From a virus: a stretch of 33,216 nucleotides of DNA. The DNA lies in the IMG/VR virus record IMGVR_UViG_3300028840_001872, positions 1 through 33,216 of that record; one strand, given 5' to 3'. The translations under genes were made by a program, and so were the position numbers. The notes beneath the pieces are model-generated. The model was given only the letters and a program-made list of their open reading frames with translations. It made no database searches and was not told the origin of the DNA. This document shows, in pieces, positions 2,736 through 31,797 of the stretch (position 1 is the stretch's first letter; each line of letters begins with the position of its first letter).

Positions 2736-4025
2736 TCACTGGTCCCCATAACCACGATACACATACACCACGTCTCCCTCTGAATCTACCCCACTCGGCC
2801 ACAGCGCACCGCCAAAGTACCGATACGGAGACTTGGCCTCGTTGGGGCTGTTCCAGTAGTACCGGATCAGGTCGAACATCGTGTAGTGGTAGAACCGCGC
2901 ACGCTGGGACGGGGAGCCCCGCACGAGGTTCACCGCCTCCACCGCACGCAGCGTCCGGAAGCACGGCAGGATGTGATCGCGGATATCGCTGAAGTGTACC
3001 TCTCCGCACCGCCGCGCTATTACGATCGCCTCAGTGAACTGGCCCCGGTGATACTTCGCCGTCTCCGGGAGCCCACAGCACGAGCCGTTGAAACACCGGT
3101 CCTTGTGATGGGCGTCGGAGACGTAAAACCGGAGCCGGAGCCGTCGGCAAAGCGCTTCCATCTTGTCGACGTAGGGTTGTTTGATCTTCGGGTTGAGCCG
3201 CATATAGCCAGTCGCGTTCGGGGTGTTCCGGCGGTAGAAGTCGACGATATCAATTCCCAGCGCCTCCGATATCCGATCGAACCGCGCACGACCGTCCTTC
3301 GTCATCCGCCGCTCCACGCAGAAGAACTCCGTAGAGACGGCCCGAGCTCCCGCCGCCGCCGCGCGGCGTATCAGCTCCAGGTATTCGTCCCCTACGTCCG
3401 ACAGCCCAATGATGAACGGTCGGAGCCGAAGCGTTACCGGGACCCCTACCGCCGCCAGCGTCTCCAGCGCCTCCAACCGCTCCTCCGGCGACGGACAGCC
3501 CATCTCAATCGCGCGGGAGCGGTCCCGATCGAGATTGATGATGCTGTATTTCATATTCCAAATATCCCGGTTCCGCGCAAATAGCGTCATATACCGATCG
3601 TCCTCTGTCCACCAAGTGCCCTTCGTGCTGAAGCAGACCGGATACCGGAGCTCCGCGAACAGCTCCAGCAGCTGGAGCCCAACGCCCATCTGACGTTCAA
3701 ACTCATCAAACGGGTCCGAGAGCCCACCCCACTGCATCCAGTACCGATCCGCAATGTACTGGCTGAACATGTTGTTGGTCTCTCCCCGGAACAGCTTGCC
3801 CAGTGCTTCCACGTTGACCGGGTCCGGCCTCTCCTCCGTGTACAGCTTGCGAGTGCCCCCGCTGTTCAGGAGCCAGTTCAGGTGCCGGATGCCCCGTTGG
3901 AAAAAGCTGAAGCAGTACAGGCAGTTGTAGCTGCACCGGGAGTATTGGTCAAACGTCATCGGCATTGAACAGTCCAGCACTTCCCCGGTCCATCTCGGTG
4001 AGCCGTAGAATCTCTGTTTGGTCAT
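2736..4025 (-). CDS. Radical SAM protein, first of two (hypermodification candidate)
   Basis: It has the radical SAM cluster motif C31-S-Y-N-C35-L-Y-C38-F (CxxxCxxC), which binds a [4Fe-4S] cluster and S-adenosylmethionine to start radical chemistry. Later parts resemble the spore photoproduct lyase/COG1533 group: the strand K-Y-S-I-I-N-L near 161 and the F-I-I-G-L-S-D loop near 213. The C-terminal third has more cysteines (D-R-C-F-N-G-S-C-C near 315), possibly an auxiliary cluster. The ATG at 4025 follows GGGAGGACTGA and overlaps the kinase stop. It shares a string with a kinase and a base-transferase candidate, so I infer a step in thymine hypermodification. DNA photoproduct repair is the main alternative. 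Confidence 0.8.
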   Translation of the reverse strand: MTKQRFYGSPRWTGEVLDCSMPMTFDQYSRCSYNCLYCFSFFQRGIRHLNWLLNSGGTRKLYTEERPDPVNVEALGKLFRGETNNMFSQYIADRYWMQWGGLSDPFDEFERQMGVGLQLLELFAELRYPVCFSTKGTWWTEDDRYMTLFARNRDIWNMKYSIINLDRDRSRAIEMGCPSPEERLEALETLAAVGVPVTLRLRPFIIGLSDVGDEYLELIRRAAAAGARAVSTEFFCVERRMTKDGRARFDRISEALGIDIVDFYRRNTPNATGYMRLNPKIKQPYVDKMEALCRRLRLRFYVSDAHHKDRCFNGSCCGLPETAKYHRGQFTEAIVIARRCGEVHFSDIRDHILPCFRTLRAVEAVNLVRGSPSQRARFYHYTMFDLIRYYWNSPNEAKSPYRYFGGALWPSGVDSEGDVVYVYRGYGDQ

Positions 4026-4597
4026 TCAGTCCTCCCTGCAAATATGAAAGTGGCACACAGGCCAATCACCCGCTCAAAATCGGCCTCGGTGTCAAACCGG
4101 ACCGTGGTGATGTCGCCCCGGCTCCGTATCATGTTCATGTATTTAGTGTCCCGGCCGCGCAGGAATGTTTCTGTCTGATTCACGGAGCCTCTTGCGGCCC
4201 TCCGCGCAGCCAGCACTGAGGGAGTCACCCACAGGACCAAGTGCAACCGCTCCTGCGCCTGCAGCCCATCCAAGAATGAATCGCAGAACAGCCGGTCACC
4301 CTCAAACACCACGGTGTCATCGGCATTGCTGAGCCCATTCAGAAAGTACAGCGCATCCTCGTGGACGGCCATGGACAGCCGATCGGTCCCGGCGAACTCT
4401 CCCGCCTCCGGATCGTAGCGTCCAAGGAAGTAGATGAGATGGCCCTGGGCGGGGCCGTTCGTCACCTCGGCCATATGGAACTCCAGCGCTCTCATCTTCC
4501 GGACCGTCCCGACCGCCGCACAACGCTTCACGAGCTCCGCCACCAGTGTCGTTTTTCCCGTCGCCGGGGCTCCCCCGATCGCCAGTAGTCTAGGCAT
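4022..4597 (-). CDS. P-loop kinase, possible 5-hydroxymethyluracil DNA kinase
   Basis: A Walker A loop G-G-A-P-A-T-G-K-T lies at residues 8-16. The middle has G-R-Y-D with G-T-D-R-L-S-M, then V-V-F-E-G-D-R-L-F as a Walker B-like strand, and a later R-x3-R-R-A-A-R lid-like stretch. This is the build of small nucleotide or polynucleotide kinases (AAA_33/HMUD-kinase-like). In phages with hypermodified thymine, a P-loop kinase phosphorylates 5-hydroxymethyluracil in DNA so that a transferase can replace the phosphate. The neighbouring transferase-like gene makes this a good fit, but it remains inferred. The start has GGGAG eight bases upstream, and the stop overlaps the radical SAM gene by four bases. 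Confidence 0.7.
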   Translation of the reverse strand: MPRLLAIGGAPATGKTTLVAELVKRCAAVGTVRKMRALEFHMAEVTNGPAQGHLIYFLGRYDPEAGEFAGTDRLSMAVHEDALYFLNGLSNADDTVVFEGDRLFCDSFLDGLQAQERLHLVLWVTPSVLAARRAARGSVNQTETFLRGRDTKYMNMIRSRGDITTVRFDTEADFERVIGLCATFIFAGRTE

Positions 4598-4826
4598 TGG
4601 TTTGTCTCCCTCGATAGAGAACGATCAACAAGAACAACGCTTCCTTGTAACTCCCGAAGCCGACCCGCTGGACGTTCCGGGGACAGAGTATCTCAACGCC
4701 CAACGGCACCCGATACCAACGCCGCACGCCCTTCCTTACTATACCGGTCCGCGCCTTCCCCCATAGCCAGAACCAACCGCGAATCCCCGGACGGCGTATG
4801 ACTTTGAACTTAGTGATTGGCTTCAA
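4590..4826 (-). CDS. Small basic protein, 78 aa, TTG start
   Basis: The TTG at 4826 overlaps the TGA of the transferase-like gene (TTGA) with GGAGGG just upstream; an upstream ATG in this frame lies inside that gene without such coupling. The product begins M-K-P-I-T-K-F-K-V-I and is rich in R, K, W and G, with a hydrophobic helix A-L-F-L-L-I-V-L-Y near the end. No family is recognised. Its location between kinase and transferase suggests an accessory or partner protein of the same pathway; that is inference from context. Confidence 0.55.
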   Translation of the reverse strand: MKPITKFKVIRRPGIRGWFWLWGKARTGIVRKGVRRWYRVPLGVEILCPRNVQRVGFGSYKEALFLLIVLYRGRQTNA

Positions 4827-5740
4827 GCAATCCCTCCCTCCATCGGACAAGCGGACGGCGGAACGTTATGTTCAACTTTTACTCCTCTCAACGTTCCCTT
4901 CAACTTATTGCGAACTCCACTCCAGCCCATCACCTCTCCGAGATACGATCGAGGGAAAGCGAAGCGCCGCGCCTCCCAATACACTCGGGGACAGGCGCTC
5001 AGATCCTCCATCTGTTTGTCGATGTCGTGCCCCACGTAGTACCGGCCGTGTACCAGGCTGTTGAAATCGCAAAGCGCCGTCTCCATCTCCTCCCACCCCT
5101 CCCACGGCACCTCGCACCGAAGGCAGTAGTTGTAAAACTCCTCCTGAAGCGCTCGGGACTTCGCGCACTCCCCCCACGGCCGTCCCGTCAACAGGGAGAG
5201 TCCTGGGACGGGTCCCGCGCATTTCCCCCCGCCGCCCAATCCGATATCCGGGGACGTGATCGAGCAGCCAAGGACGTTCCGCGACAGATCACACCACTTG
5301 AACGCCGCCCAACTCCCACAGTGAGGGAACGTCTGTACGTCTCGGTACAACGCCTCCCACCCGGCCATTCCTCCCGGCGCGGTCACCTCCTCCAGCCACT
5401 GGGAGAATGGCTTACGGTTCTGGATCATCCAATTCAGGAACTCCGCCGCCCTCTCCGCTCCACCCATACCCCGGAATCCCCGCCGTTCAACTCCCGTCGG
5501 CAGCGCTCTCAGCGAAGGGAACAATACCGCGTCCCTATTCACGCAAATCACAAGCTCTGCCGACCCGAGGTGATACCACGTCAGATAGAGCAGCGTGTGC
5601 CAGATGGCTTGTTCTCGGGTCATCGCCCGCATCCGCTGTACGTGATACAGGACGGGGTAGACCGGATCGATATCGCCGGACTCCTTGTGCTCGATGGCGA
5701 AGCGGATGAACGCCGGCATCAACGTTTCGTGGTACTTCAT
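4823..5740 (-). CDS. Putative thymine pyrophosphorylase/amino acid:DNA transferase, clade 2-like
   Basis: The first third, D-P-V-Y-P-V-L-Y-H-V-Q then E-Q-A-I-W-H-T-L-L-Y-L-T-W-Y-H-L-G-S-A, matches my recollection of the phage alpha-glutamyl/putrescinyl thymine pyrophosphorylase family, clade 2. Those proteins have a DNA-glycosylase-like fold and swap the pyrophosphate on 5-hydroxymethyluracil for an amino acid or amine. The rest holds a conserved-looking block H-C-G-S-W-A-A-F-K-W-C-D-L (about 140-152) and several more cysteines. ATGA coupling to the radical SAM gene upstream and the kinase gene two positions downstream support the role. I have not searched a database; an unrelated phage hypothetical is possible. 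Confidence 0.5.
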   Translation of the reverse strand: MKYHETLMPAFIRFAIEHKESGDIDPVYPVLYHVQRMRAMTREQAIWHTLLYLTWYHLGSAELVICVNRDAVLFPSLRALPTGVERRGFRGMGGAERAAEFLNWMIQNRKPFSQWLEEVTAPGGMAGWEALYRDVQTFPHCGSWAAFKWCDLSRNVLGCSITSPDIGLGGGGKCAGPVPGLSLLTGRPWGECAKSRALQEEFYNYCLRCEVPWEGWEEMETALCDFNSLVHGRYYVGHDIDKQMEDLSACPRVYWEARRFAFPRSYLGEVMGWSGVRNKLKGTLRGVKVEHNVPPSACPMEGGIA

Positions 5741-7074
5741 CGTGTCCTCCAGTACTCCCGCCGATAGTCCTCCGGCTTCAACGCGTGAGCCTCAGCTAGA
5801 TACGGCACACCGCAAGGAATATCCGATCCGCACGCCTCCCGACAGTACAGACAACCGCTCGGAGGACAGACGTCCCACGGGACAAATCGCCCCTCGTGCT
5901 TGATATGGATCGGGACCCGCTGCCCGTGACACTGATCGGCCGTCAAGAACCGAGGACCCATATTGACGCCGGTCTTGTCCATGATGTTCCCGGCCGCGTC
6001 ACGCTCATAGCAGAACTCAAAGCACAGCGACATTGTCACGCCGTTCATCTCGCACGCGTGCTTGTAGAGATTCAAACTCTCTACGCGGTAGCTCTCCCGG
6101 ATGTTGCGGACGTTCCCAATGTTCTCACACCAGAGCTCCGCGAACCGCTCCCAGCGATCCGGAAACAACCGCTTCATCCGGTACATCATCACTGGCGCGG
6201 CGCTCTCCACCATCTCCACGAACTTGAAGATCAAGTGATGAGCTCCGGCTCTCGCCAGCTGTCCGATGAGCTCCACGACCTGCTCCTGAGAGGTGATACC
6301 TGGGATGATCGGATCGACCTGAATGGAGATGTAGATGCCCTGATCGCGGAGCTCTCGGATCGATCGATACGTATCATCGAGGAGCGCCGCCCGGGGGCAG
6401 ATCTTCCGATGATCCTCCTGGTCGCAGGTGATGATACTGTATTGCATATAGCTGAACCGGCTCCGCTTCAGATACTTCACAGCCCAGTCCGGGGGAATCC
6501 GTCGCGTGAGATAGAAGATCGGAAGCCCGTAGGAGGTCAACACCTCACTGAGTTGCTCCACGTTGTGGTACACCTCCTCCAATGGCTGGAACGGCTCCGT
6601 GTATCCCGAGATATACGCCGCCCACCCAAAGTTCATCTCGCTCAGCTGTTTCTCGATCTTCACCGGATACTCCGGATCGACTACCGAGATACCTTGTCCC
6701 CGGTAGCCACGAACGCCGTTGTTGATGTAGCACATCACGCAGTTCAACGGGCAACGTCCACCGTAAGGCTGAGTGAGAAGCGCCTCAGTGTAGCAGGGAC
6801 GGGGCCGAACACCCTTGGGCTCTACTTTCGACTTGTACCAGCCACGCAGCGGAACGTTCTGATCCCGGATGACGTGGGGGGTGGGCTTGAGATACACGCG
6901 CATCGGCTTTCGATTTTCCGGCCGCGCGTTCCTCACCATCCCAATCAACCACTCCTCCCACACACCCTTCTCCGGATCGATCCCGCACTCTCCGGTTTTC
7001 ATCGGCAGCTCCGCACGGCAGAACTTTCGATACTTCCCGTCATCCCAAACGTCAATCGATTTGATAACAGGCAT
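5737..7074 (-). CDS. Radical SAM protein, second of two
   Basis: The cluster motif is C108-P-L-N-C112-V-M-C115-Y, after an unusually long N-terminal region of about 100 residues. The core then follows the COG1533/spore photoproduct lyase style: G-Y-T-E-P-F-Q-P-L-E near 150, Y-L-T-R-R, M-Q-Y-S-I-I-T and Q-V-D-P-I-I-P-G. Near the end a dense cysteine group (V-C-P-P-S-G-C-L-Y-C-R-E-A-C, then C-G) may hold an auxiliary iron-sulfur cluster, seen in several radical SAM enzymes that act on large substrates. The ATG at 7074 has GGAGGG five bases upstream; a GTG three bases earlier is possible. It lies next to the transferase-like gene, so the same pathway is inferred. Confidence 0.8.
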   Translation of the reverse strand: MPVIKSIDVWDDGKYRKFCRAELPMKTGECGIDPEKGVWEEWLIGMVRNARPENRKPMRVYLKPTPHVIRDQNVPLRGWYKSKVEPKGVRPRPCYTEALLTQPYGGRCPLNCVMCYINNGVRGYRGQGISVVDPEYPVKIEKQLSEMNFGWAAYISGYTEPFQPLEEVYHNVEQLSEVLTSYGLPIFYLTRRIPPDWAVKYLKRSRFSYMQYSIITCDQEDHRKICPRAALLDDTYRSIRELRDQGIYISIQVDPIIPGITSQEQVVELIGQLARAGAHHLIFKFVEMVESAAPVMMYRMKRLFPDRWERFAELWCENIGNVRNIRESYRVESLNLYKHACEMNGVTMSLCFEFCYERDAAGNIMDKTGVNMGPRFLTADQCHGQRVPIHIKHEGRFVPWDVCPPSGCLYCREACGSDIPCGVPYLAEAHALKPEDYRREYWRTR

Positions 7075-7289
7075 CACTTCCCTCCCCGAGTCTTGCGGAG
7101 CCGGACCATATACTTGTGGAACCGATCGTACACCTCCTCCGGAAATGTAGAGGTGAACCGCATCGCATTCTTGTCCGTGAGCCGCGTGTGCTTTTCGATC
7201 TCCAACAGGAGCGCTTGAGCCTCATCGCGTTCCGCTTCGGCCCTGACTACGTCCTGCTGTAAGAGATCAATCGCTTCCTCATATTTCAT
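7074..7289 (-). CDS. Small coiled-coil protein, 71 aa
   Basis: The ATG at 7289 follows GGAGGTGAGGA. The first half is a charged helix with heptad character (A-I-D-L-L-Q-Q-D-V-V-R-A-E-A-E-R-D-E-A-Q) and the second half is basic (F-H-K-Y-M-V-R-L-R-K-T-R). Its stop overlaps the start of the radical SAM gene. No known domain is apparent. It may be a small adaptor or regulator of the cluster, or simply an early accessory protein. Confidence 0.6.
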   Translation of the reverse strand: MKYEEAIDLLQQDVVRAEAERDEAQALLLEIEKHTRLTDKNAMRFTSTFPEEVYDRFHKYMVRLRKTRGGK

Positions 7290-7292
7290 TCC

Positions 7293-8000
7293 TCACCTCC
7301 ATCGCGTAGTAGTCAACTCTCCGCGATATCCAAGTTGGAGTAACACGTAAGACGCCTCGTGTGTATAGGCGACGTGCCGTATGGTATAACCTTCCGGCCG
7401 TCCCAGAACGTCCGACAGGAGGCGGTAATAGTCACCGGGGCTCCGGACGCTGCGAGAGAAGGCGGAGGAGTACCACCCCGCGTTCAGATGGAGTCGATAT
7501 ATAGCGGAGTCGGTCAACACGAAATAGCCACATCCTTGGCGCAGGTAGGATTGGACGCAACGCGCCTTCTCGGACTCCCGTAGGACATCGAGCACGGTGA
7601 ACTGATAGAAGTCCCCGAGGACTAGATCGGCTCCCGGCTCCCGACCGTTGATCGAATCACAACAACGGAACGATACGCCGTTGAAATTGCGTTGTACAAT
7701 CTTTCCACTCACCGGATCGATATCCCGCGCCCTCACCTCCGCTCCCGGCCAGAGCCTCCCGACCGCTCGCAGACAGACGCCCACCCCAGTGAACAGATCC
7801 AATACCGTCTCCGGTTGACGATCGATACGGCCGAACACGTCCAACATGCAGATGTACTTCCGAGCGGCACGTTGGGGGCGTGCGAAGGTCTTGAGGAGAT
7901 AGCTGTTGTCGGACCACTTGTCGTGGAAAAGACGTTCGGCGTACCACGCTGTATCAATCTCCAGCGCCGCCATCCCCTCTATCTCTATCGTCCTCCGCAT
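7293..8000 (-). CDS. Rossmann-fold SAM methyltransferase-like protein, 235 aa
   Basis: A classic motif I is seen, V-L-D-L-F-T-G-V-G-V (about residues 68-76), then an acidic strand end A-R-D-I-D-P for the ribose of S-adenosylmethionine. Where amino-methylating DNA enzymes have D/N-P-P-Y/W, this protein reads L-V-L-G-D-F-Y-Q-F, so it is not a standard adenine or N4-cytosine DNA methyltransferase. It could modify a small molecule, protein or RNA, or another position on the base. The ATG at 8000 has GGGGAG seven bases upstream and is preferred to a TTG at 8006. It lies between the ParB-domain gene and the hypermodification candidates and may belong to either set. Confidence 0.65.
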   Translation of the reverse strand: MRRTIEIEGMAALEIDTAWYAERLFHDKWSDNSYLLKTFARPQRAARKYICMLDVFGRIDRQPETVLDLFTGVGVCLRAVGRLWPGAEVRARDIDPVSGKIVQRNFNGVSFRCCDSINGREPGADLVLGDFYQFTVLDVLRESEKARCVQSYLRQGCGYFVLTDSAIYRLHLNAGWYSSAFSRSVRSPGDYYRLLSDVLGRPEGYTIRHVAYTHEASYVLLQLGYRGELTTTRWR

Positions 8001-8012
8001 AGACAAACTCCC

Positions 8013-8711
8013 CTAGATCGAGAGATTGAGTTTGGAGAAGTCGATTGCGCGTTCAAACTTCCCCATCCCGAACTTCAACTTGAACCGACTCAACTGCTGG
8101 GAGTCATCGAACCGGACTATGACGAACTCCCCTTGGCCCTTAATCGCGCCGGATACCTCTACCGTCTGTAACTCCTCCGGCGGTGCGTCGGACAGCTGGA
8201 GCCCTTTCCACTCCTTATCATTGAACCCCACGGACTCCTGAGAGGGCATCTGCCCTGAGGACATCAGCGCCTGAAGTACCTCCTGATCCCAACCGCTGAA
8301 CTCGTGGGCTTTGTTGTCGCTGAGGGAGTAGGCGATCGCCGCCGTCTCCGACTCAAACGCATTCACCACCACCGGGATAACCGACATCCCGAGGAGCTTA
8401 CACGCTTTCCAGGTCGTGTTCCCGGCGCGGATCACGTTGTCCTGATCCACAACGATCGGCTTCCGCATTCCGTTGATGCGGATCAGCTTCGCCAACTTCG
8501 GCACCGCCTTCTCGTTCACCCGCGCGTTCCGGGGATCGAGCTTTACGGAGTCGATCGGGACGCACAGCTGTTCCATCATTCCCGCCGGAACGAACGGGAA
8601 CCGGCCGGAGCCTTGAAACGTCTCCGGGGACTTACGTTCAAACGTTGCAGCCTCCGCTCTCTCAGTTCGTGGGAACGCTGTCGATCCCGGCGCTACCTTC
8701 TTGATCGCCAT
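8013..8711 (-). CDS. ParB/sulfiredoxin-domain protein, 232 aa
   Basis: Residues about 50-140 match the ParB-like nuclease domain: V-P-I-D-S-V-K-L-D-P-R-N-A-R, L-I-R-I-N-G-M-R-K-P-I-V-V, then I-R-A-G-N-T-T-W-K-A, which stands where the usual G-H-R/T-R loop lies, followed by L-G-M-S-V-I-P-V-V and S-D-N-K. No helix-turn-helix DNA-binding part typical of plasmid ParB follows; the C-terminal 90 residues are of a different, unknown kind. Such stand-alone ParB domains are common in phages, often near methyltransferases, where they may act as nucleases or NTP-using switches. The start has GGGAGGACCCAG directly upstream. It overlaps the primase gene by 19 bases. Confidence 0.75.
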   Translation of the reverse strand: MAIKKVAPGSTAFPRTERAEAATFERKSPETFQGSGRFPFVPAGMMEQLCVPIDSVKLDPRNARVNEKAVPKLAKLIRINGMRKPIVVDQDNVIRAGNTTWKACKLLGMSVIPVVVNAFESETAAIAYSLSDNKAHEFSGWDQEVLQALMSSGQMPSQESVGFNDKEWKGLQLSDAPPEELQTVEVSGAIKGQGEFVIVRFDDSQQLSRFKLKFGMGKFERAIDFSKLNLSI

Positions 8712-18146: not shown

Positions 18147-18856
18147 GCTGCCTTCTTCTGTGCTGCCTCCGCTTTGCTGGCGGGGACGTTCGCGCGGCCC
18201 ACGCGCACCATCCGCTCGATCGTCGCCCCGTCCTTCAGTCCGAACTTCTCCCGCGCAAGCTTGAAGCGACCCCGGTTGAGTTCGGAGCGGTTGATGCTGA
18301 TAGCGCTCTTGATGGACTTCTCGGAGCGCGTCGATCCCGAGGCCACGACCTTCTTCAGTATTTCCTCATCGGTCCACTTCTGCTCACAGAGGAGCCGGAC
18401 TACCATCCCGCACGCGCTCTCTCCGCGCTTCTCCTTGGCCTTCTTGGTGGCGGCGGGTGTGGTCTTGGCCTTGGGTTCCGGCTTCGGCTTGGCCGGAGGC
18501 TCCTTGGCCTTCTTGGTGGCTTTCTGTTGGCGAGGGAGCTTGGGTGGTTTCTTCGGCTTCGCCTTCGGCTCCGGCTTCTGAGCCGGGGACCGCTTCCGGG
18601 GCTTCGGCTTCGACGCGGTGGCGGTGGTGGTGCTCTCCGGAGCCTGAGCACTCCCCGAGCCCTGGGCAGGGGAGCGACGGCGCGGTTGGGACTTCGGCGG
18701 GGACTCTCCGGCCGAAGGCGTAGAGCTCTCCGCCGGAGCACTCCCCGAGGCGCAGTTGGCGTGGTAGAACTCACCACCCTTGATTGCGAAGTCATCCCCC
18801 TTCTTTATGGGTTTCTTGCAAGCGGTGCAAGGCCCATAGTCACGCGTTGCTTTCAT
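18134..18856 (-). CDS. Zinc-finger protein with Lys/Pro-rich linker, 240 aa
   Basis: The N-terminal 36 residues form a treble-clef or LIM-like finger: C10-T-A-C13 with H32-A-N-C35. Residues about 37-145 are a low-complexity linker of K, P, A and S repeats such as K-P-K-P-E-P-K-A-K. The C-terminal 90 residues are folded in appearance (W-T-D-E-E-I-L-K-K-V, S-I-K-S-A-I-S-I-N-R-S-E-L-N), perhaps a winged helix. It is strongly basic, so DNA or RNA binding is likely. The start follows ACGGAGGTAGTACG with an ATGA overlap. Its family is not recognised. Confidence 0.7.
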   Translation of the reverse strand: MKATRDYGPCTACKKPIKKGDDFAIKGGEFYHANCASGSAPAESSTPSAGESPPKSQPRRRSPAQGSGSAQAPESTTTATASKPKPRKRSPAQKPEPKAKPKKPPKLPRQQKATKKAKEPPAKPKPEPKAKTTPAATKKAKEKRGESACGMVVRLLCEQKWTDEEILKKVVASGSTRSEKSIKSAISINRSELNRGRFKLAREKFGLKDGATIERMVRVGRANVPASKAEAAQKKAAAGK

Positions 18857-19398
18857 CGTACTACCTCCGTAGGTAAATGGACTGTGCTCTGGACTTCATC
18901 ACCCCAACGTTCCCACCCCGGCCGCTCCTCCCGCGCGAACAGTTCAACTCGGGGACTTGGCGCCACCGGATCGATCATCTCCCAGAATCGGTCCGGCTTG
19001 CGTGAGTGTTGCTTTGATCGCTCTCGGATGATATTGCGTGATTGGGAGCCGAACGGACGCGGATGGCCCCGAACCCCGACCAGACAGAGCTCCACCTGGC
19101 CCCGAAACCAGAAGCCCATCCCAAGGCGCTCCTTGTCCCAGAACAGCGCTGTCTTGTACCGGAATCCCCAAGCCTCTACCACACCCAGCGTCTCGTTGAG
19201 AATCGGAACAGTGACCCAGAGGAACAGCAATGCGTCCGCCGCGACGATCGACGGGACCGGGAGGCGCTTCACCTCCTCGGTTGTCATCGTCCGATACTGT
19301 TGGGCCGCGCCGCTTCGATGCGTTCCGCCGGTTGAACGGTTCCGGTAACGCCAGGGAGGGTCAGCCACAACAGTCCGAAAGCGGACCGCGCGGATCAT
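18853..19398 (-). CDS. MT-A70 family adenine methyltransferase, 181 aa
   Basis: It opens with R-T-V-V-A-D13-P-P-W16-R-Y, the catalytic DPPW of MT-A70/N6-adenine methyltransferases, followed by L-L-F-L-W-V-T and G-F-x3-K-T-A-L-F-W, all family marks. It would methylate adenine in phage DNA, perhaps to avoid host restriction. The ATG at 19398 overlaps the previous stop (ATGA). A much longer upstream frame exists but lies over the neighbouring gene and lacks a ribosome site there, so it is rejected. Confidence 0.9.
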   Translation of the reverse strand: MIRAVRFRTVVADPPWRYRNRSTGGTHRSGAAQQYRTMTTEEVKRLPVPSIVAADALLFLWVTVPILNETLGVVEAWGFRYKTALFWDKERLGMGFWFRGQVELCLVGVRGHPRPFGSQSRNIIRERSKQHSRKPDRFWEMIDPVAPSPRVELFAREERPGWERWGDEVQSTVHLPTEVVR

Positions 19399-19670
19399 TC
19401 CTCGGGAATGAATGGATTGAAGACGAACGGCGCGGTGATCGTCATGTCCCCCCGGTAGCGGCACGGGGTATCCGCGTCCGCTCCGCACAACCCGATCACT
19501 CCATCCGTTTCGTCCTCCATGCCCTGCTTCCCCTTGTTGCCCTTCGCAGGGGTCAGAGCCCGAGCGAACACGTTGGTGCGTTCGCTGCAAGCGACGGAGC
19601 CCGACGCCGTGTCCAGTCCGCAAGTGAGGATGCGGACCTTTTCCGCCTTCTGGGCGACGGAGAGTTTCAT
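19395..19670 (-). CDS. Unknown early protein, 91 aa
   Basis: It starts 8 bases after GAGGAGG and directly downstream of the promoter at 19709-19737, which makes it the first gene of that transcript. The product begins M-K-L-S-V-A-Q-K-A-E-K-V. It contains four cysteines (C17, C28, C62, C70) and a small, beta-rich pattern with many G, T and D residues. Being first after a strong promoter suggests an early function such as host interaction. No family is recognised. Confidence 0.6.
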   Translation of the reverse strand: MKLSVAQKAEKVRILTCGLDTASGSVACSERTNVFARALTPAKGNKGKQGMEDETDGVIGLCGADADTPCRYRGDMTITAPFVFNPFIPEE

Positions 19671-19708
19671 GCGTGCCTCCTCGGTTGTTGGTTAAGTGAG
19701 CCGAATAA

Positions 19709-19737
19709 AACATACTGTGCGTCCCGTCGAAAGTCAA
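19709..19737 (-). promoter_or_regulatory. Early promoter P2 (sigma70 type)
   Basis: On the minus strand TTGACT (19737-19732) and TATGTT (19714-19709) are 17 bases apart. The core matches promoter P1 at 19 of 29 positions, including the spacer end GCNCAGTAT. A 21-bp box lies 52 bases upstream. It drives the 91-residue gene and the MT-A70 gene. Confidence 0.65.
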
Positions 19738-30300: not shown

Positions 30301-31767
30301 TTACGCGGCCGGGCTCTGGAGCAGGAACTGGATCGTGGAGCCGCCGATACGGAACTGGTTGACCAGATCCGGCGGCAACGTCCATTCCAACCGATCCGGA
30401 TCACTCTGCGACCGAACGCACACGAGATCGTTCTTGAACTGGTCGAAGTTCTCCACCAGCCCCAAGAGTTCCCACTGACGGAACTTCGCCAACGCTTCCG
30501 CCTTCCCCGTCTTGGGAGTCATGACGGACTGTCCCGGCGCAACCCGCACGCCATCATCCGCCAGCTTCGCTCTCGGATACTTCGTGAGGATGTGCTGGCG
30601 CCAGTCATAACGGATGTACATCAGGGTCAGGAGCGTGTTCACGTTCAGATAGGCGATATCATCCGCCTGTGACGCATTCTTCTGATACATCGTGATACAA
30701 CGCTCGATCCGAACCTTCCCCGCCTGATCCGCGTAGATCGTAGCGATCCCGTCGAACAATAGACTGTTCCGCTCCACGTAGGTGAAGCGCTCGGTGATCG
30801 GGGCGGGGACAATCCCCTTGAGCTCCAACGTCTGGAACGGACGCGCGGGATCGGTTGAACCTTCCGCCGCGACCTGACCCGCAATCGCGGCCGCTACCTC
30901 ATACGGCGGACTGATGGCGTCTGTCGCTTCCGCCGTCTCCACGTGTGGACTGTTCCGGCCGTTCCCGAACGTGGCGAGATTCGCCAGTGTGTCATCCTTG
31001 GCCGCGAAGTACAACCCGTCGATCATCTCCGTCGGACCGAACCGATCGGACAACTCGGTTTCGATCGCCGTGAGGTTGGTCGCGTCGGTATACGGGGCGA
31101 CAAATATCTGATACCACTCGTCGCCCAGGATATCGATCACGTCCTGGATATCCGGGTTGGTCGCTCCGGAGGCCATAGCAACAACGGCGCAAGAGACTCC
31201 GGCCGGTAGCTCCTCTCCCTCATTGTAGTTCACTCGCAGGTCGATGTCATTCCCCGGCTCACCATCATTCTTCGCCGTACAGGTAACGACTCCCGCCACA
31301 TTGGCTGCCGTCACTGGGAGAGAGGTATCCGCCGTGATCGCCGCCGCCAGCGCATCCCCTACATCCGTCGCCGCATCTCCCGAATCCACCGCCGCCGTCA
31401 CGCGCCGTCCTCCAATGTACGCATAGACGGTTCCCACCGCCGTCGCCGTCCCGGAGAACGTGAACGTGCCGGTTGCGGGGACTCCCGCCGCGTCATCATC
31501 GAGCCCGCACGCATACACCTCGGTGAACTTGTTGTTCTGGAACCACCGCTGTGCCATGTTGTGAAGCTGGGAGCCTTCCCCGAACTTCTCCCCGGCTTCG
31601 TCAGCGCTCGTGATCCGCGTGATTACCGCCTGTGCTACGGACCCTCCGGCCGTCCTCCCGCCGACCAGCAACGCCTTGTACGCCAGCAAAGCCGGACCCT
31701 GGAAGGCACGGCTGCTGTCGAACTCCACCGCAAGGATCGGAGCTCGCAGATTGGTAGGTATGCTCAT
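30301..31767 (-). CDS. Contractile tail sheath protein (Mu gp39/L), 488 aa
   Basis: Its size, its N-terminal part (L-R-A-P-I-L-A-V-E-F-D), the insertion-like domain with many A, T, G and V residues (about 115-210), and the C-terminal conserved region (L-N-V-N-T-L-L-T-L-M-Y-I-R-Y-D-W-R and T-K-Y-P-R-A-K-L-A-D-D-G) fit Mu-like sheath proteins. It shows the phage has a contractile tail. The ATG at 31767 follows GGAGGGAAGTG. Confidence 0.95.
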   Translation of the reverse strand: MSIPTNLRAPILAVEFDSSRAFQGPALLAYKALLVGGRTAGGSVAQAVITRITSADEAGEKFGEGSQLHNMAQRWFQNNKFTEVYACGLDDDAAGVPATGTFTFSGTATAVGTVYAYIGGRRVTAAVDSGDAATDVGDALAAAITADTSLPVTAANVAGVVTCTAKNDGEPGNDIDLRVNYNEGEELPAGVSCAVVAMASGATNPDIQDVIDILGDEWYQIFVAPYTDATNLTAIETELSDRFGPTEMIDGLYFAAKDDTLANLATFGNGRNSPHVETAEATDAISPPYEVAAAIAGQVAAEGSTDPARPFQTLELKGIVPAPITERFTYVERNSLLFDGIATIYADQAGKVRIERCITMYQKNASQADDIAYLNVNTLLTLMYIRYDWRQHILTKYPRAKLADDGVRVAPGQSVMTPKTGKAEALAKFRQWELLGLVENFDQFKNDLVCVRSQSDPDRLEWTLPPDLVNQFRIGGSTIQFLLQSPAA

Positions 31768-31797
31768 CACTTCCCTCCTGTTGAGAGTTGTTGGCTG

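Follow-up and report, generated by a model that had tools for sequence, protein, structure and literature searches.

The window analysed here is a whole viral entry of the IMG/VR database (IMGVR_UViG_3300028840_001872; 33,216 bases), a fragment without end repeats from a contractile-tailed phage (tail sheath gene at 30301-31770). It carries a cassette of eight open reading frames (ORFs; Table 1) which sequence comparison identifies, with good support, as a base-hypermodification cassette of the kind known from Pseudomonas phage M6. Two of the products are putative radical S-adenosylmethionine (SAM) enzymes, termed rSAM1 and rSAM2, and the interest of the cassette lies more in the identity of the second than in the number of such enzymes. 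rSAM2 represents a family not described before that is frequent among viruses from oxygen-free habitats, although this novelty is provisional since most journals lay outside the literature search; Lee and colleagues (2021) reportedly found varied combinations of hypermodification genes in metagenomes already. In the favoured reading, which is given close to an even chance, rSAM2 would make a hydroxymethyl (or equivalent) handle on the base without oxygen, and a kinase, an amino-acid:DNA transferase (ADDT) and rSAM1 would elaborate that handle as in M6.

A base must bear a hydroxyl group before the kinase or the glycosyltransferase of such pathways can act on it. Among complete phage genomes that have such cassettes and no rSAM2, 12/12 contained exactly one hydroxymethyl source, namely a thymidylate synthase (TS)-family gene in four M6-type phages and TET in eight actinophages, the latter serving as positive controls for the TET/JBP profiles. 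The actinophage TET scores fall under the Pfam curated cut-off yet are significant, and the copies in Tonitrus and Wooper are annotated as Tet-like. The 33-kb fragment encodes no TS-family, TET or ThyX protein, in agreement with a first-pass annotation of the window that found no deoxyuridine monophosphate (dUMP) hydroxymethylase in it. The same annotation expected that enzyme elsewhere in the genome, an expectation not borne out in related end-repeat records with rSAM2; because these also have none, its absence would not refute the cassette idea. Records combining ADDT, kinase and rSAM2 had a TS-family or TET gene in 0/14 cases and ThyX likewise in 0/14. Three rSAM2 records bear end repeats, two with ADDT and kinase (L058/G025, 54.6 kb; L065/G030, 56.3 kb) and one with a TET-associated glycosyltransferase (TAGT; L056/G024, 49.5 kb), and TS, TET and ThyX are absent from all three. 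When 20 further G025 proteins were scanned against Pfam, the matched ones included an integrase, helicases, a protein with a recombinase domain, structural proteins, lysis proteins, a reverse transcriptase and a SAM synthetase, and neither a hydroxymethylase nor an oxygenase was among them. ThyX was also considered as the missing hydroxymethylase and rejected, being present in only 2/45 records. The distribution of rSAM2 is nearly complementary to those of TET and TS. A C5 methylase was found in 6/44 rSAM2 records and was absent from G024 and G025; since 38/44 records have none, thymine is the only methyl-bearing pyrimidine seen to be supplied by the phage. The reverse transcriptase of G025 (L193:5256-6665) possibly belongs to a diversity-generating element.

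Neighbourhood counts and a tree were obtained for 88 non-redundant strong rSAM2 loci. Some of the profiles applied do not fully separate rSAM1 from rSAM2, or the kinase from the M6 kinase, and served only as rough gene labels. ParB was found near rSAM2 in 75/88 loci. The nearby acceptor enzyme was a TAGT in 35 loci and ADDT with kinase in 25, one of these also with a TAGT; six loci had the kinase only, and the remaining class of 22 had neither TAGT, ADDT with kinase nor kinase, some of its members containing other glycosyltransferases or radical SAM genes (L004, L007). Also in this class, L133 has ParB next to a C5-cytosine methylase and rSAM2, and some loci (L063, L124) contain only ParB, a GNAT protein and rSAM2, with no transferase. 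On the tree of the 88 proteins the ADDT/TAGT label changes 11 times, and at least nine changes are forced for ADDT by the starred branches. ParB and rSAM2 are thus the constant elements and the acceptor enzyme, ADDT with kinase or TAGT, is what swaps. Because rSAM2 stays while acceptor enzymes are exchanged, it would act before or independently of the transferase, and because ADDT and TAGT switch repeatedly around it, its step would be useful to both routes.

The closest relative of the window (L034, 64%) encodes ParB, a pyridoxal phosphate (PLP) protein, rSAM1, ADDT, kinase, three small ORFs and rSAM2, that is, the core M6 set plus rSAM2, with no TS-family gene in its 39 kb; among the 88 loci, rSAM1 and rSAM2 occur together only there and in the window. 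A chance neighbourhood was rejected, the same order and overlap recurring in L034, L003 and others. The gene order is ParB-ADDT-kinase-GNAT-rSAM2-terminase in rSAM2 phages and ParB-TET-ADDT-kinase-terminase in actinophages. In 21 loci rSAM2 has a SAM synthetase-family gene nearby. That of G025 (L194:9018-10043, phage L058) stands immediately upstream of the cassette; the 20 others likewise have SAM synthetases or shorter relatives (264-301 aa, weak similarity) within ~6 kb of rSAM2, and some of these proteins may produce a derivative of SAM. More remote relatives of rSAM2 (22-32% identity; Clostridium, Faecalibacterium and others; L141, L143, L144, L145, L161) occur as ParB-rSAM2-PLP-like loci without ADDT or a glycosyltransferase, possibly another modification system.

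Neither rSAM2 nor a central relative of it gave a tblastn match in 50,697 GenBank phage records, and relatives are encoded in 273 matched stretches of IMG/VR. Sequence work used the best 80 of these 273 stretches, with cysteine conservation assessed over 79 relatives. rSAM2 matches phrog_13321 (4e-10) and, under the cut-off, Radical_SAM (3e-4). C19, the CX3CX2C motif (C31, C35, C38), C316 and C317 are kept in at least 78/79 relatives. The predicted structure is confident (pLDDT 94.8, pTM 0.93) and has a radical SAM fold, the nearest solved fold being spore photoproduct lyase (Z 19.9 over 261 residues, root-mean-square deviation 3.0), whose structures fill the top six rows (Z 19.4-19.9); the next family scores 16.3, and lipoyl synthase folds are also among the matches. 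Searching solved structures by sequence was uninformative for rSAM1, rSAM2 and ADDT. Homology also links rSAM2 to rSAM1 (hhalign 97.7%). In the reaction of spore photoproduct lyase, a thymine methyl radical arises as an intermediate and is then quenched by a cysteine, the hydrogen donor lying ~43 residues after CX3CX2C (PMC3742179). No conserved cysteine is found at that spacing in the 79 rSAM2 relatives, as judged from sequence without residue-level structural alignment, and this would fit, if only suggestively, a radical that is oxidised and hydrated, not quenched. In L027 (8719-9597, 9836-11164), and likewise in L028, rSAM2 is apparently split by an intein/Hint domain, the N-terminal part forming a separate ORF.

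A scan of 84,980 genomes yielded 31 strong rSAM2 loci, distributed among Bacteroidia (10), Clostridia (9), Negativicutes (3), and one each in Lentisphaeria, Coriobacteriia, Spirochaetia, Methanobacteria and Bacilli, with one Bacillota without class and three unplaced; there was no strong match in Pseudomonadota. These lineages are largely anaerobic, which fits an oxygen-free substitute for TET, and none of 15 whole genomes carrying rSAM2 had TET. TET-bearing actinophages, in turn, infect soil actinobacteria, which we take to be aerobes. Cultured isolates with rSAM2 include Bacteroides fragilis S82 (L114, within a 992-kb contig) and Selenomonas ruminantium S137 (L128).

The remaining enzymes of the cassette are predicted to act downstream of the handle. 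The gp53-type enzyme of M6 reportedly acts as a radical SAM isomerase, rearranging the amino acid once it has been attached to the base (Lee and colleagues, 2021). rSAM1 aligns over its full length with M6 gp53 and Pam3_46 at 41% identity, and C109, C113, C116, C352, C383, C404, C409, C412 and C422, comprising the motif and six C-terminal cysteines, are invariant with M6 and Pam3. Its GenBank relatives are 'DNA repair photolyase' genes of M6, YuA, Pam3 and Bordetella and Rhizobium phages, and a single-protein scan of viral_contigs found no relative. By sequence it belongs to the M6 gp53 family (phrog_9252), from which an isomerase role is predicted. M6-like phages group the gp53-type gene with ADDT, kinase, HMUDK_hel, Nmad5, a PLP enzyme and a hydroxymethylase (PMC9476957).

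For the product of 4823-5740, which the first-pass annotation called a clade 2-like transferase, the profile check gave PF18724 at 42.9 bits (curated cut-off 26.2), the family into which M6 gp51 also falls. The D, DPxY, R and ETxLC positions are invariant across seven distant members, the GDIDPxY, ERR and ETxLC motifs are present, and identity to Tonitrus gp6 is 36%; a single-protein scan of viral_contigs found no relative. The family call as ADDT is solid, and the predicted activity is amino acid transfer to a phosphorylated hydroxymethyl base in DNA. Six loci (L003, L020, L037, L115, L116, L122) have a glutamine-amidotransferase-like protein (PF13522, weak) near ADDT, hinting at an amide-forming or ammonia-using step. 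The kinase at 4022-4597 did not fall where it had been expected: it has no match to the 5-hydroxymethyldeoxyuridine DNA kinase family HMUDK_HMUD1 (PF18748), which M6 gp54 matches at 7.7e-18, and instead passes PF18751 (Ploopntkinase3) narrowly, with 27.6 bits against a cut-off of 27.0. Its P-loop and EGxRL motif are conserved in relatives. An identity as terminase small subunit (phrog_800, the GenBank label of the family) was considered and rejected. The cassette kinases of phrog_800, M6 gp54 and Mycobacterium phage Baee gp5 carry that label in PHROGs or GenBank, probably in error.

The cassette is proposed to hypermodify a pyrimidine, most likely thymine, in replicated phage DNA, which would hide the DNA from restriction. 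In the order of steps that we infer, rSAM2, perhaps guided by ParB, would use SAM and a reduced [4Fe-4S] cluster to remove a hydrogen atom from the C5-methyl group of DNA thymine, and the methyl radical would be oxidised and trapped, without oxygen, as 5-hydroxymethyluracil or an equivalent reactive handle. rSAM2 would in this way stand in for the TET or dUMP hydroxymethylase step of other systems. To judge from their families, the kinase would then phosphorylate the hydroxymethyl group and ADDT would exchange the phosphate for an amino acid, which rSAM1, by analogy with M6, would rearrange; in related phages the same handle would pass to a glycosyltransferase instead. Because the fragment has no PLP decarboxylase, the carboxyl group may be retained in the product, in contrast to the 5-(2-aminoethyl)deoxyuridine (5-(2-aminoethyl)dU) of M6. 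More tentatively, and at somewhat less than even probability, rSAM2 may found a radical SAM family that is the anaerobic counterpart of TET/JBP, oxidising the thymine (or 5-methylcytosine) methyl group in DNA to a hydroxymethyl-type handle without oxygen; many phages of gut, rumen and other anaerobes would use it as the entry to interchangeable cassettes.

Several observations weigh against the favoured reading. To our knowledge there is no precedent for hydroxylation of DNA by a radical SAM enzyme, and a modelled radical SAM fold would not by itself fix the reaction. The exclusion between sources is not absolute, TET accompanying rSAM2 in 3/44 records (L011, L012, L036) and a TS-family gene in 1/44 (L019). 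Most IMG/VR records, including the window, may be incomplete, and the cassette counts come from loci related by descent that are not independent. Furthermore, host names of metagenome-assembled genomes can be wrong for phage contigs, and the host argument draws on the hosts of rSAM2 relatives. Finally, the sequence homology of rSAM2 to rSAM1, whose M6 counterpart acts late, would also suit a late role for rSAM2.

Such a role, in which rSAM2 would tailor the decorated base as rSAM1 does and the handle would be supplied by the host, by an unrecognised gene or by one lying beyond the fragment, is the alternative we take most seriously and nevertheless consider unlikely. It draws on the homology to the M6 isomerase family, on the standing of radical SAM enzymes as tailoring enzymes of these pathways (reportedly found by Lee and colleagues, 2021) and on the possible incompleteness of records. 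Against it, rSAM2 accompanies either of two unrelated transferases, whose added groups differ chemically, and also occurs without any; moreover, the two end-repeat records with ADDT, kinase and rSAM2 lack TS-family and TET genes, ThyX is missing from all 14 records of that class, and the further proteins scanned in one of the two include no other oxygenase or hydroxymethylase. An improbable alternative has rSAM2 act on the methyl of 5-methylcytosine, or on another base, in parallel to the thymine pathway. The side-by-side genes of L133, the three records with both TET and rSAM2, which would suit two targets, and the six records with a C5 methylase speak for it; the 38/44 records without such a methylase, including end-repeat G024 and G025, speak against it.

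Were rSAM2 instead to make a different handle, such as by inserting sulfur or adding a one-carbon unit, C19, C316 and C317 would hold an auxiliary cluster. The conservation of these three extra cysteines in 78/79 relatives and the lipoyl synthase folds among the structural matches are compatible with such chemistry, but hydroxyl groups are the expected targets of the kinase and glycosyltransferase families and spore photoproduct lyase is clearly the closer fold, so that little probability is assigned to it. Hardly any is left for rSAM2 as a DNA repair enzyme that merely travels with the cassette: its closest solved fold is that of spore photoproduct lyase and rSAM1-type homologues are annotated as DNA repair photolyases, yet its neighbours are consistently base-modification genes over many lineages, and no cysteine is conserved at the sequence spacing of the lyase hydrogen donor. 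Handle formation by rSAM2 is the reading retained here.

The eight minus-strand ORFs from 8711 down to 2736 overlap or abut, forming one tightly coupled cassette, and are listed in this order in Table 1.

Table 1. Cassette of the window, in gene order from position 8711 to position 2736.
Feature	Coordinates	Strand	Evidence
ParB-N domain protein, opens cassette	8013..8711	-	PF02195 2.6e-7
Methyltransferase-like protein	7293..8006	-	DLFTGVGV...ARDIDP...LVLGDF without NPPY; phrog_363 E 0.001
Small coiled-coil-like protein, 71 aa	7074..7289	-	ORF only
rSAM1, radical SAM, phage M6 gp53 family	5737..7077	-	phrog_9252 7e-104; Radical_SAM 2.8e-9
ADDT, amino-acid:DNA transferase (aGPT-Pplase2)	4823..5740	-	PF18724 6e-11
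Small basic ORF (86 aa, pI 11.5), uncertain as a gene	4590..4850	-	TTG start, overlaps ADDT
P-loop nucleotide kinase, probable hydroxymethyl-base DNA kinase	4022..4597	-	PF18751 2.5e-6; phrog_800 8e-8
rSAM2, widespread undescribed radical SAM family, spore photoproduct lyase-like fold	2736..4025	-	phrog_13321 4e-10; Radical_SAM 3e-4; motif; model

The first-pass annotation had described this coupled string, and every gene it named was recovered at its position on the minus strand. It overlooked the ParB-domain gene, a cassette member in relatives that opens TET cassettes in actinophages too. Profiles back both of its radical SAM calls, and its suggestion that two such enzymes imply a chemistry other than the known ones gains support from rSAM2 forming a family apart, which is widely distributed in its own right. 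The thymine hypermodification cassette that it proposed holds as M6-type base hypermodification, given the transferase, kinase and M6-type radical SAM enzyme; thymine as the target we infer. The methyltransferase-like protein does lack NPPY, as had been described, while its family call is weak (HemK E 0.09 in addition to phrog_363), as is a match to Pam3_39 (3e-5); it has no relative in viral_contigs, and its single-sequence structure model is poor (pLDDT 33). No homologue of the 71-aa coiled-coil ORF was found in the compared loci, nor was any found of the 86-aa basic ORF. Away from the cassette, the window encodes an MT-A70 adenine methyltransferase (18853-19737; PF05063, 7e-27).

If the favoured reading is true, it would explain how phages of strict anaerobes start hypermodified pyrimidines where TET fails for lack of oxygen, would add a DNA-acting radical SAM reaction for which we know of no precedent, and could provide an enzyme with which modified bases might be written. 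Should the handle step prove wrong, rSAM2 would still flag many phages whose DNA is predicted to be modified, and the two cultured carriers, B. fragilis S82 and S. ruminantium S137, make this prediction directly testable.

Among known systems, Pseudomonas phage M6/YuA, which makes 5-(2-aminoethyl)dU, shares with the window an adjacent ADDT, P-loop kinase and gp53-type radical SAM gene. The window, a 33-kb fragment, differs in having no dUMP hydroxymethylase, PLP enzyme, HMUDK_hel or Nmad5, in a kinase of another Pfam family, and in the addition of ParB, the methyltransferase-like protein and rSAM2. Spore photoproduct lyase resembles rSAM2 in fold (Z 19.9) and is a radical SAM enzyme of thymine chemistry in DNA, whereas rSAM2 is only 13-14% identical to it, has no conserved cysteine at the donor spacing, possesses an extra C-terminal part and sits in modification cassettes. 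TAGT cassettes share the pairing of ParB and TAGT, found with rSAM2 in 35/88 loci; there rSAM2 replaces TET or, rarely, accompanies it, and the window itself is without TAGT. The ParB-TET-ADDT-kinase cassettes of actinophages (Tonitrus, CaiB, Phelemich, Kozie) likewise begin with ParB, contain the closest relatives of the window ADDT (33-38%) and kinase, and adjoin terminase, as do many rSAM2 phages. Whereas these actinophages carry an oxygen-dependent TET and have no rSAM2, the window has no TET and carries rSAM2 together with rSAM1.

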